DNA from: Candidatus Poribacteria bacterium
Lineage (GTDB): Bacteria; Poribacteria; WGA-4E; WGA-3G
Direction: 5' to 3'
DNA length: 64,000 bases
NCBI GenBank assembly: GCA_028824125.1
Contig: JAPPES010000031.1
Coordinates: 1 to 64,000 of the forward strand
Shown: in pieces, positions 23,669 through 41,461 of the stretch
Numbering within the stretch: the first letter of the stretch is position 1
How the letters are laid out: each line of letters begins with the position of its first letter
Translations under genes and position numbers: made by a program
Notes under the pieces: model-generated
Seen by the model: the letters and a program-made list of their open reading frames with translations, nothing else
What the model was told of the DNA's origin: nothing
Databases searched by the model: none

Positions 23669-23696
23669 AAAGACACATTAAATGAGGAGAGTAACA

Positions 23697-24275
23697 ATGC
23701 GAAGCAAAAAATTCAACCAACTATTCTTAAGGTTTTTTCTCTGTGTTGCTATCGTGCTAATTCCTTGTGTGATTTTCACGTCTTGTGTGGAAGAAAAGCA
23801 GTTAGATGAACTTGTTCAGGAAGCAAATCAAGAAGACACAGAACAGAATTCTGAAGAACCTGTGGTGGCACTTCCAGGACTCCCTGAAGATGTAGCAGGT
23901 TATGAGAAGTGGCTTAAATTAAACGCCGAACCGATTCCGCCTGTTCCAGGTGGAGACCCACACAATGGTACAAAGAACGTTTATGTCAACCAAGAACGTG
24001 GGACCATTGCACCGGATGGTGAACAACAATTTCCATATCCTGATGGAAGCATTGTCGTAAAAGAAGCATTTCGACCAAATAAAGACTATGTGGGACTCAT
24101 CGCAATCATGCGCAAAAAAGCAGGAACTGATCCAGACCACAACGATTGGGAGTTCATAGAATATACCCGAAACGCACCAGATGCTGATTTCAAAGTTATC
24201 GCCTCCGGTGGAATATGTTGGAATTGTCATGTCAGAGTCGAAGACATAGATTATGTTTTTACTGAACTTGACTGA
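23697..24275 (+). CDS. cytochrome P460-like heme lipoprotein
   Basis: Start at residue 6 of the track ORF, after GAGGAG. A hydrophobic signal ends in FTSC, so it is probably a lipoprotein. After an acidic linker, residues about 65-190 resemble the cytochrome P460 domain (PYPDGSIVVKEAFRPNKD...LIAIMRKKAG...DWEFIEYT), closing with the heme-binding CWNCH and DYVFTEL. P460 cytochromes oxidise hydroxylamine or bind NO, but related domains have other or unknown substrates, and the lysine cross-link that defines P460 cannot be judged by eye. It is 22 bases upstream of the cytochrome-barrel gene, a likely electron-transfer partner. Confidence 0.8.
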   Translation: MRSKKFNQLFLRFFLCVAIVLIPCVIFTSCVEEKQLDELVQEANQEDTEQNSEEPVVALPGLPEDVAGYEKWLKLNAEPIPPVPGGDPHNGTKNVYVNQERGTIAPDGEQQFPYPDGSIVVKEAFRPNKDYVGLIAIMRKKAGTDPDHNDWEFIEYTRNAPDADFKVIASGGICWNCHVRVEDIDYVFTELD

Positions 24276-24297
24276 CGTTAAAAAAGGAGTACGCTTT

Positions 24298-25530
24298 TTG
24301 AATATATATCACAATAGACTTGTAAGGCATTTTCTTGCACTGTTTACATTTACGCTGATAATTAATTTTTTATGTGTGAGTTTTTGGACAAACGTCGCGG
24401 AAGCGCGACCTGAGTTTGCAACTGAATTAGACAAAGACTGTAACTTCTGTCACATTGACCCTGCAGGTGGCGGTCCTCGAAACCGAATTGGGGAAATTTT
24501 CGAAGAGAACTATTTTGAATTTCCCGAAGATTTTGATATGGATGCAGTCACCGAAGAAGCTAAGGAGGTTGTTAAACAACTCACCACATCACTTGAGCTC
24601 CAAACAGCTTTTATCAAAACTACCCATGTAGATGAAGAGGAAGGCACGGTAGCCGGGTGTAACTCATGTCATTCCTCAGTTGATAGGTTTCTCCTCATGC
24701 AAGCTGAGGTAACGTTCAATGCGCAAGCCTCTGAACACGTACGTTTAACCCTTTCTAACAACGTTGGCACTGTACTCAACGCTTTCGCAACAGTAGATGC
24801 TATTCCAAAACATCTTTACGTTAAAGTAGGGCGGTTTCGTCTACCGTTCGGTATCAAACAGAAGGATCATAATATCCTTGTCCGAGAAGGTTACGGACTC
24901 GGTTCTAATAAGCGAGATGTTGGTGTTGAACTCGGTGGCAGTTTAGGAAGAGTGTTTTACAACGGAGCATTTTTCAACGCTGGTAATGCAACAGCGAAAG
25001 GTGTCCTTGGCACTGTTGGTGGACAACTCGGTCCAATTCGTGCTGGGGTCTCATGTATATTTGAGCAGCCTGATGAAGATTGGGACCGTCTTATCGGTGC
25101 ATTCTTCACCGCTTCCTATGCAGGTTTGAGCATCGAAGGGGAATTCAATTTCGGAAACAGTGGTGCAATATCCTCTTTCGCATCAGATGACATTGATTCA
25201 AAGGGATATTATGTCGGTGCTAAATATCGCGTCTTGCCCCAACTCACTGTTGCGGGGCGATACGGCTTGTTCGCCCCAACAGGTAGGATATTTAAGAGTG
25301 ACGACCCAAGCTTGTTTTCCCCAGGGACGACAGTTAAAGGTGACGTAAGCCGGCGGGTGACCTTCAGTGCTCAGTACAATTTTATGGAAAACGGCGCAAT
25401 TTCATTGTTTTATTGGGCGAACCTACCGAACGCAGAGCGAGAACCCGATGAGAACATTAACAGCAAAAGTATGTTAAGACAACTTCAAGGATCAGACCAG
25501 ATTATTTTGATGTCACGGTTCTGGTTTTAG
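24298..25530 (+). CDS. diheme cytochrome fused to predicted outer-membrane barrel
   Basis: Start TTG at 24298, eight bases after GGAG, gives a signal peptide ending NVAEA. Two c-type heme sites follow (CNFCH near 48-52, CNSCH near 121-125). The remaining 280 residues alternate hydrophobic and polar strands (RLTLSNNVGTVLNAF; HLYVKVGRFRLPFG; LTVAGRYGLFA; VTFSAQYNFM) and end in phenylalanine (MSRFWF), the signature of an outer-membrane barrel of the porin O/P type. A heme domain fused to a porin is the plan of Cyc2-type iron oxidases, which carry one heme. This points to electron transfer across the outer membrane. It is cotranscribed with the P460-like lipoprotein. Confidence 0.8.
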   Translation: MNIYHNRLVRHFLALFTFTLIINFLCVSFWTNVAEARPEFATELDKDCNFCHIDPAGGGPRNRIGEIFEENYFEFPEDFDMDAVTEEAKEVVKQLTTSLELQTAFIKTTHVDEEEGTVAGCNSCHSSVDRFLLMQAEVTFNAQASEHVRLTLSNNVGTVLNAFATVDAIPKHLYVKVGRFRLPFGIKQKDHNILVREGYGLGSNKRDVGVELGGSLGRVFYNGAFFNAGNATAKGVLGTVGGQLGPIRAGVSCIFEQPDEDWDRLIGAFFTASYAGLSIEGEFNFGNSGAISSFASDDIDSKGYYVGAKYRVLPQLTVAGRYGLFAPTGRIFKSDDPSLFSPGTTVKGDVSRRVTFSAQYNFMENGAISLFYWANLPNAEREPDENINSKSMLRQLQGSDQIILMSRFWF

Positions 25531-38915: not shown

Positions 38916-39087
38916 TATAGTGAAATCTACAATTATCTGGACATTGACGAGGTTAGGAAGAAATCAACGGTATGAATCATGGCGAATACGCATAAGGTAT
39001 TCGCCATGATTCCCCGCCTCGCCAGCGTGATGGTGTGGGGATTGTTGTTCATTGAAATGTCCACATATTTTCGGAAATTTACAACTA
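38916..39087. mobile_element. MITE-like element, copy E, with extra hairpin
   Basis: The left end TATAGTGAAATCTACAATTA and ctggacattg match the family; the right end (ggaaatttacaactac) has diverged and overlaps the stop codon of the 39085 gene. Compared with copy C, the centre carries an added palindrome (atggcgaatac...gtattcgccat) between ttaggaagaaatcaacggt and ccccgcctcgcc, also seen in the fragment at 25625. Confidence 0.65.
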
Positions 39088-41232
39088 CTTTCCCCAGGGT
39101 CGTGCTTGCTTGATTGAAATTTTGCCATTGTTTGTAATTTTGAATTCAATTTCCATAGCAAAATCTGTTGTTTGCGATGCGCCACCATACAACTGACTAA
39201 ACTTGTTGTGTACTGTGCCAAGATACAAATTCAATTCACGCAGATATTTGTCTGTCAGAATTCGTTTGTTATCTGTTACTCGGTTTGAGGTTGACACAAT
39301 TCTATAGTTATTGCTATCCCACCAATCCAATAAAATTTCTTCTGGAATGGACTGTTCTTCCGGATTTGTCACGAGGTTTTCCCCAACTTGAATGTTGAGA
39401 TAGTAATTTCCTTCAGTTTGATAAACAACATCATCAGATACAGCAACACCGTTTGCTAATTCGTTCTGAAAATTGGGATGGACAAGTACGCCCATTGCTG
39501 TCGTTAAATGGTCAATTCGAAAAAAGTCCCGTGCCTCAAACGCCCGGAAATTCCATAGACTCGCAAAAACCTGCTTAATCGATTTTGACAAATGTCCTTC
39601 ATCAGGATTGTGCGTAAAGGAATCGTATAACCCCGCACCACTAAAACCGGGCAGGTCCTCACTGTTCGTGCTGGATCGGCATCGGAGAGAAGTTCCGTTT
39701 GGAAATGAATTTTGTAAATCTGAAAGTGCACGCATCATCCACGCTGGCATTTTTCCCTTCTCTATTTCTGACCTAAACTTTATTAGTTCGGTTTCTTTTA
39801 CGTCATGCGAATTCTGGAACGCAGAGGCTTTGAGTAACTCCTCTGCTTTTGTATAAAAACCATTATGCTTCATGAATTCGTCATAAAAATAGAACGGCAC
39901 CCCAAATCCGTCTGGTACTGTGCCTTTAGGAAATCCAAACGTCCTTAGTGTTGCAACGTTAGCTGTTTTAACGCCAAAGCTGGATGAGTCCGCGAACTTG
40001 ATGTCGTCGAGTGGCAAAATCTTTTTAGCAGAAAGATTGCGTTTAGGTTTCTGCGTTTTTGTTGGACGTAAATCAGCAAAATGAGTTTCTACCTCTTCAC
40101 GTGTCGCTGCCCTAATTTCAAAACCATCCGCGTTTACCTTATAGTAGACATATTTTCCGATAAGTGGTGCAATTAATCTGTTTTCCCACGCTTTGGTAAT
40201 AAATGCGTTTGGAACTTTATCTTGAATAGCACGCAAGTTCACGTGTGATAGTGGTGTTTGCCGCACACCTGTGATTGTCCCCGCAACTCGCGGCATTTCG
40301 TTCGGTAACGTCTTGCAGATGACGATATCGCGTAGTGTCGGACGCTCGTTTGCCCCCAGTAGACGCAGCCGACCATACGACTCTGCCTGATTCAGTGGGA
40401 GATAACCGATGTTAGCGTAAAGGTCATCTTCAAAGTAAACGGGAAATTCAGCTTTATCATATAGTGCCTTTTCACGTCTATAAATACCAATAGCACCCCA
40501 TAACGGGCAATAGCCAAGCCTGTTCTTGAGTATCGGCATCTTCGCTACCAGCAAGTCGTGCACAAGTTTAATTTTTTCAAATGGAAATGCATCGTTTGGA
40601 TTAAACTCAAAGGTGTAAACCCCGGGTTCACCGTTCGGTGCGGTAAAAAGTGGGCGATAGCTGAGCACACCGCGCATCTGTCCTTGTCCTCTGCCTAAAC
40701 CCGCAGCCCGCATGAAACTTCCATGGGAACGATGTGTCTTTGTGTTCATAAAATAAAGTTGTGGGTTCTGTGTATGGGTATTTTCAACCTGAATTTTTAC
40801 AAATTCAATTCCAGCAAGTTGAGTGTCAATACGCACATCTGTGCCCTGATATGATAACTTTTTGAAGGTTTTCCGGTCAGGAATCGTGGCTGCTCCATCT
40901 TTGAATTCAACTTGTTCAGGGGTTAGGCGCGGTCCTGAAGGTTCTCTTGAATCACGTCCTCTGCTAAATCCACCTCTTCCGCGAGAGCGTTCATTCCTAC
41001 CGCTTTGCATTTGGCGAATCTCGTTTTCACTGAATTGGACACCTCTGGCATTTTCAATCCTCAGGACTCTTACCATGAGCTCCTTTTCAGATGTGCTCAG
41101 TTCGCCATTTGCATCAAGGTCGAATCGCTTTTCATCTTTTGAGAGTGTTTCTTGCGTCCAAGTGTTTAGGACAACTATTATCGTAAAAATCATTACCAAA
41201 GCGGAAATAATTATGTTATTTTTATTTTTCAT
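39085..41232 (-). CDS. exported PEP/pyruvate-binding (PPDK-like) protein with EF-hand
   Basis: Start at residue 15 of the track ORF (MKNKNN), after GAGG. About 715 residues: a signal-anchor (about 5-25), an EF-hand-like loop (DLDANGELSTSE), an RG-rich linker, a beta domain, then a swivelling phosphohistidine-like segment (TPLSHVNLRA, about residue 350) and a C-terminal PEP/pyruvate-binding ATP-grasp domain with RCRSSTNSEDLPGFSGAGLYDS and ending SIKQARPW. The usual PPDK order is reversed, as in plant glucan water dikinases. Export of an ATP-dependent dikinase fold is odd, because ATP is scarce outside. The stop codon lies in the edge of MITE copy E. Confidence 0.78.
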   Translation of the reverse strand: MKNKNNIIISALVMIFTIIVVLNTWTQETLSKDEKRFDLDANGELSTSEKELMVRVLRIENARGVQFSENEIRQMQSGRNERSRGRGGFSRGRDSREPSGPRLTPEQVEFKDGAATIPDRKTFKKLSYQGTDVRIDTQLAGIEFVKIQVENTHTQNPQLYFMNTKTHRSHGSFMRAAGLGRGQGQMRGVLSYRPLFTAPNGEPGVYTFEFNPNDAFPFEKIKLVHDLLVAKMPILKNRLGYCPLWGAIGIYRREKALYDKAEFPVYFEDDLYANIGYLPLNQAESYGRLRLLGANERPTLRDIVICKTLPNEMPRVAGTITGVRQTPLSHVNLRAIQDKVPNAFITKAWENRLIAPLIGKYVYYKVNADGFEIRAATREEVETHFADLRPTKTQKPKRNLSAKKILPLDDIKFADSSSFGVKTANVATLRTFGFPKGTVPDGFGVPFYFYDEFMKHNGFYTKAEELLKASAFQNSHDVKETELIKFRSEIEKGKMPAWMMRALSDLQNSFPNGTSLRCRSSTNSEDLPGFSGAGLYDSFTHNPDEGHLSKSIKQVFASLWNFRAFEARDFFRIDHLTTAMGVLVHPNFQNELANGVAVSDDVVYQTEGNYYLNIQVGENLVTNPEEQSIPEEILLDWWDSNNYRIVSTSNRVTDNKRILTDKYLRELNLYLGTVHNKFSQLYGGASQTTDFAMEIEFKITNNGKISIKQARPWGK

Positions 41233-41461
41233 GGTTTTCCTCAATAAATATTGAAATTTGGGTAAAATATACAATCAGTCCTTTCTTGTTAGATTAGGCA
41301 AATTAGGAGCCGAATTTGTTCAAAAAAAAAACATCCCATCCATCTTTGAATGTGAAAAGTTCTACAGATGAAACTTGGTTTTTATTTTCAAATTGGTGAT
41401 TTTGTGATATGATATGCAGTACAGTTTAGATTTCAAGATACTTATACAAGGAGATTTTATC

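Follow-up and report, generated by a model that had tools for sequence, protein, structure and literature searches.

The smallest set of cofactors able to carry electrons through an outer membrane is still a matter of debate, and a pair of adjacent genes in a metagenome-assembled genome of Candidatus Poribacteria bears on it. Poribacteria are uncultivated, mostly sponge-associated symbionts. The pair is located at positions 23697-25530 of the window, by which we mean the whole stretch of 64,000 nucleotides that was analysed, and consists of two codirectional genes on the plus strand, a P460 lipoprotein gene followed by a gene for a porin-fold protein. It is flanked by ftsY (minus strand) on one side and by alpha-2-macroglobulin and PbpC-like genes on the other. 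Scans for promoters and terminators performed no better than shuffled sequences, and the NCBIfam search returned no significant family for either protein. Elsewhere in the window, the minus-strand gene at 39085-41274 encodes a large protein in which a PPDK_N (ATP-binding) domain comes after a hydrophobic segment at the N-terminus and a DLDANGELSTSE stretch resembling calcium-binding sequences, an odd combination. The features of the gene pair are listed in Table 1.

Table 1. Features of the P460 lipoprotein gene and the cytochrome-porin gene, in window coordinates.
Feature	Position	Strand	Basis or remark
P460/cytochrome c'-beta family heme lipoprotein, 192 aa	23697..24275	+	PF16694, E 1.8e-12; PDB relatives are c'-beta and P460
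Putative lipobox cysteine, Cys30 in IFTSC	23784..23786	+	Read from the sequence
His89 of P460, heme-cap position	23961..23963	+	Aligned with Phe32/Phe29 of c'-beta; 17/17 homologs
Lys122 of P460, position of the heme cross-link lysine	24060..24062	+	Alignment to 6hih and 7ead, and Table 2 of PMC11928373; 17/17 homologs
Ala136 of P460, position of the distal catalytic carboxylate	24102..24104	+	Corresponds to Gly82 of McCP-beta/TtCP-beta in the alignment
P460 heme-attachment motif CWNCH, residues 174-178	24216..24230	+	C174, C177 and H178 unchanged in all of 17 diverse homologs
Diheme fused cytochrome-porin, 410 aa	24298..25530	+	Likely TTG start; ribosome-binding site AGGAG at 24285-24289
Predicted signal peptide	24298..24405	+	Cleavage expected at AEA/RPEFA; judged from the sequence and from how long the hydrophobic segment is in homologs
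Heme 1 motif CNFCH, residues 48-52	24439..24453	+	Precedes the barrel, predicted to face the periplasm; invariant among monoheme and diheme proteins
Predicted 16-stranded outer-membrane beta barrel, residues 95-410, last residue Phe	24580..25527	+	AlphaFold2 strands; PDB fold matches
Heme 2 motif CNSCH, residues 121-125	24658..24672	+	Loop L1 (strands 1/2), predicted extracellular
Asp190-His191, long loop L3	24865..24870	+	Invariant across mono- and diheme members

The first gene product was matched by the Cytochrome_P460 profile with 48 bits against a cut-off of 27, and its start codon (ATG 23697) has GAGGAG on its 5' side, at 23684-23689. From the N-terminus, the protein is composed of the lipobox, an acidic linker and the Cytochrome_P460 domain with its heme motif near the C-terminus, which bears out the P460-like lipoprotein proposed in the initial annotation; a cysteine closing the hydrophobic N-terminus was found in most full-length homologs. 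With the cytochromes P460 and c'-beta it has in common the fold family and the C-terminal CxxCH, as well as a lysine at the cross-link position, as in P460. The counterparts of this lysine are Lys70 in NeP460 and Phe61 in McCP-beta, and it marks a predicted position for cross-link formation. As differences from these cytochromes, the protein is a lipoprotein with an acidic linker, it carries alanine at the carboxylate position and histidine at the cap, and its gene is linked to that of an outer-membrane cytochrome-porin. The cap residue in characterised members is Phe or Arg, and His is not among the tabulated examples (PMC11928373). Ala136 was nearly invariant among the 17 homologs, with Glu96 as its counterpart in NeP460. 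The same genome has a second P460-family lipoprotein gene (L121:5580-6167, G000:C101), the product of which is 25% identical to the first and has a glycine- and acid-rich tail.

The clear P460/c'-beta homology and the invariant cross-link lysine position speak for a nitrogen-oxide module, in which the lipoprotein would oxidise hydroxylamine or bind NO, while the porin heme or hemes would accept electrons or admit the substrate. NsP460 possesses the cross-link lysine without the carboxylate and does not oxidise hydroxylamine (PMC11928373). Given the fact that the position of the carboxylate needed for this reaction is likewise occupied by alanine in the window protein, hydroxylamine oxidation was ranked low and a hydroxylamine oxidase was rejected as the leading idea, which also weakens the earlier suggestion that the pair serves nitrogen compounds. 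Several families moreover encode the barrel without P460, and we regard the module as improbable.

The second gene had been read from ATG 24253, a start that overlaps the P460 gene; the TTG codon listed in Table 1, with its preceding AGGAG, is the likelier one. The encoded protein ends in MSRFWF, with the stop at 25530. The initial annotation described two CxxCH motifs preceding a 280-residue outer-membrane barrel that ends in phenylalanine. Both motifs exist and the terminal residue is indeed Phe, but CNFCH alone precedes the barrel, CNSCH being placed in the loop between the first two strands, and the barrel is longer, at about 315 residues. A PDB search with the barrel sequence gave no significant match. 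AlphaFold2, run with a 68-sequence alignment, predicted 16 strands over residues 95-409 (pLDDT 68.7, pTM 0.67), and the best 50 Foldseek matches of the model in the PDB were all outer-membrane porins (OmpM1, OmpT, OmpU, OmpC and others; E 4e-12 to 7e-9). This argues against a soluble beta fold of the C-terminal region, a reading that the initial annotation had named as fatal to its proposal. Loop L7 of the window protein is longer by about 15 residues (window ~25276-25323, near PTGRIFKSDDPSLFS), which are absent from the other aligned homologs.

The short loops of porins face the periplasm. In the predicted barrel the strand count was even and the loops alternated between means of 14.9 and 2.4 residues, and this arrangement places heme 1 on the periplasmic side and heme 2 on the opposite, outer side. 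The model, which contains the protein without hemes, had low confidence (below 50) in the heme region (residues 31-77) and in L1 (residues 114-128); the periplasmic heme 1 and the extracellular heme 2 are predicted positions. The distance between the two hemes may exceed the range of electron tunnelling, which counts against an electron conduit.

Conservation was analysed across Poribacteria. The barrel gene was found in 75 of 85 genomes and in 53 of the 56 of good quality; for P460-like genes, paralogs included, the counts were 72/85 and 53/56. All 59 distinct aligned diheme sequences, which reach as low as 42% identity with the window protein, retained both CxxCH motifs, and the motifs are thus not a chance occurrence. 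Of 59 loci, 48 have P460 directly upstream of the barrel gene, the median distance between the two being about 100 bases; among the remaining 11 are loci at contig ends, loci with inserted genes and families in which P460 is elsewhere or missing. The pair was preserved in families f1 and f3, whose flanking genes differ; since f3 keeps the pair among different neighbours, FtsY, alpha-2-macroglobulin and PbpC were set aside as functional partners. No relatives were found in the viral contigs and plasmids searched. The P460 family itself varies in copy number: most Poribacteria genomes have one to three matches, while one (G078) has 14, several of them sharing contigs, and another (G009) has two P460-family genes in tandem (L124:5998-7173) and no barrel relative that we could find.

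The resemblance of the barrel fold to ordinary trimeric porins would also suit a solute porin with structural or sensory hemes, gated by redox state or NO, in which no electrons pass through the membrane. The conservation of two heme motifs between families speaks against this, as does the fact that cytochrome lipoproteins and membrane cytochromes are encoded nearby in two phyla, and we give such a porin little credence.

Cyc2 proteins are defined by the motif AXPXFAR[Q/K][T/Y] upstream of CXXCH (PMC8406198). The window protein reads A-R-P-E-F-A-T-E-L at this position, and thus retains AxPxFA and lacks R[QK][TY]. The Cyc2 motif PXL, four residues after CXXCH, is replaced by IDPAGGGPRN, and two CXXCH motifs are present in all the dihemes where Cyc2 has one; the fused porin itself, with 16 strands in a protein of 410 aa, agrees with the Cyc2 description of about 16 strands and at least 365 aa. 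Membership in Cyc2 was rejected on the R[QK][TY], PXL and single-heme features. Using the published motif as a DNA pattern (PXFAR[QK] plus a spaced CXXCH; PMC8406198), we obtained matches in 0/85 Poribacteria genomes and in 3/7 genomes from other phyla. Five Cyc2-motif cytochrome-porins were found (L142-L146), in Ignavibacteria and Nitrospirae genomes, and these genomes also carry a monoheme porin with the motif CxxCHxNPxGxGxRN.

The relationship to Cyc2 was evaluated by profile alignment with hhalign. The heme domains of the diheme and Cyc2-motif proteins, aligned on their own, gave a probability of 96-97% and E 4e-9 to 4e-10, and reversed full-length controls gave E 0.24-0.31. The barrels alone were not significantly similar with the diheme-only profile (E 0.012), and a mixed profile reached E 0.0002 at 46% probability. 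The Cyc2 relation drawn in the initial annotation is thus upheld for the heme domain, which by sequence comparison is homologous to that of the Cyc2-motif proteins, and does not extend to the diheme barrels alone. With the monoheme porins Cyc2 and Cyt572 the window protein has in common a signal peptide, a short N-terminal heme-c domain, a porin of about 16 strands in the same chain and a predicted periplasmic heme 1; the second conserved motif in L1, the P460 lipoprotein partner and the missing R[QK][TY] and PXL set it apart. The diheme porin may work in a Cyc2-like manner, though it is no Cyc2 by the published definition.

A Cyc2-like Fe(II) oxidase would let dissolved Fe(II) enter the pore and reduce heme 1, with heme 2 and P460 as accessories. 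Cyc2 of strain PV-1 has a reported potential of 208 mV, and Fe(II) is thought to need entry into the Cyc2 pore since there is a single heme (PMC8406198). The homologous heme domain and shared architecture are consistent with such an oxidase, as are the aerobic oxidase encoded in the genome and the invariant Asp-His of L3, which could bind metal; that Asp190-His191 forms a distal ligand or a metal site is a guess. The defining Cyc2 motifs are missing here, no Cyc2 motif was found in any of the 85 Poribacteria genomes, and sponge Poribacteria have been described as carbohydrate degraders (PMC8941161). We consider the Fe(II) oxidase rather unlikely.

A further comparison is offered by monoheme relatives. 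Full-length members were found in Eisenbacteria, Nitrospirae, Ignavibacteria, Marinimicrobia and some Poribacteria, and the diheme porins aligned with the CxxCHxNPxGxGxRN porins at E 8e-39 (hhalign). The two groups share 16 predicted strands and the invariant Asp-His in L3, whereas the monoheme porins have a single heme motif: their loop L1 contains no CxxCH, the position at which the dihemes carry the invariant heme 2 motif. One relative, L113, was likewise predicted with 16 strands (pLDDT 70.5), a result not fully independent of the window prediction since the two alignments have sequences in common. The monoheme porins that were tested matched no Pfam family, and no P460 gene was seen beside them in the loci read. 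In a quick tree the dihemes fell on one side, joined by the single-heme L044; this topology fits one gain and one loss of the second heme, with the caveat that L044 and some outgroups were on long branches. A Marinimicrobia operon (L115:4189-6593, L118:1-2266) encodes a PSCyt1 lipoprotein, a monoheme porin, a CytoC_RC protein and a DUF2231 membrane protein, and is possibly a related conduit of its own.

Candidate redox partners were identified within the genomes. In at least five genomes of f3, the gene following the pair encodes a membrane protein that has two CxxCH motifs and, within the helices predicted for it, conserved histidines. Orthologs were present in nearly all f1-f3 genomes, not adjacent to the pair in f1; that of the present genome is at G000:C162:112170-113225 (L135:8165-9223). 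The membrane part had no Pfam match in the ortholog tested (L033), and our guess from the histidine placement is that the protein may carry b hemes. The genome also encodes a heme-copper oxidase, and three PF01578 matches above the cut-off represent cytochrome c assembly genes, so that the lack of heme attachment machinery considered in the initial annotation does not apply.

The helix histidines and two CxxCH motifs of this membrane protein could allow it to oxidise quinol, and such conduits may operate in either direction; respiratory electrons might thus be exported to an extracellular acceptor, for instance at low oxygen within sponge tissue. We judge export unlikely, as the genome encodes a heme-copper oxidase and no MtrB-type porin system was found in it. 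The estimates for export and for Fe(II) oxidation overlap with that for an outer-membrane electron conduit, since both are special cases of it. We think that export is somewhat less likely than electron uptake, in which Fe(II) or some other small reductant dissolved outside the cell would be the donor.

Taken together, the pair probably constitutes a minimal outer-membrane electron conduit; heme loading, cellular location, electron transfer with its direction and substrate, and the role of the P460 protein are what we infer. The reading is based on the 16-strand porin fold, which a monoheme relative shares, the predicted placement of the hemes on opposite sides of the membrane, the conservation of both motifs in every diheme and the adjacent P460 gene at most loci. 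It is further based on the two-CxxCH membrane protein, next to the pair in f3 and with orthologs through f1-f3, on the Marinimicrobia operon, and on the Cyc2-homologous heme domain together with the cytochrome c assembly genes and the heme-copper oxidase. Heme 1 would plug the periplasmic mouth of the barrel and exchange electrons with periplasmic carriers, ultimately with the two-CxxCH membrane protein, and heme 2 would be positioned on the outer face. Electrons would cross between the two hemes inside one polypeptide, or move to or from the P460 lipoprotein docked nearby, and an aerobic respiratory chain would be at the inner end of the conduit. The barrel, P460 and the membrane protein are not strictly inseparable, as families f4, f6 and f8 encode the barrel but neither P460 nor a close ortholog of the membrane protein, and f7 has P460 without a diheme barrel; this counts against the conduit.

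The MtrCAB, MtoAB and PioAB systems likewise transport electrons across the outer membrane, a function inferred for the window pair. These systems hold a separate decaheme cytochrome in a 26-strand barrel, whereas in the window protein two heme motifs and 16 strands belong to a single chain. No match to PF11854, the MtrB/PioB porin family, was found in this genome, which also counts against the conduit.

A survey tool for electron-transfer cytochromes requires by default at least four hemes in a protein and 15 in a cluster (PMC11475568), so that a two-heme system would escape notice. Our literature searches on Poribacteria with Cyc2 or cytochromes returned no description of a P460/diheme porin pair. 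We tentatively suggest, as a possibility that is less than even, that the pair represents a two-heme trans-outer-membrane wire in a single polypeptide, with one heme on each porin face and a P460-type lipoprotein, and that it forms the core of extracellular electron transfer across most Poribacteria, missed by surveys based on four or more hemes or on the Cyc2 motif. The second, predicted outer-face heme occurs beside otherwise similar one-heme relatives, and a direct comparison of the two is therefore possible. If this suggestion is true, Poribacteria would gain a redox link to their surroundings.
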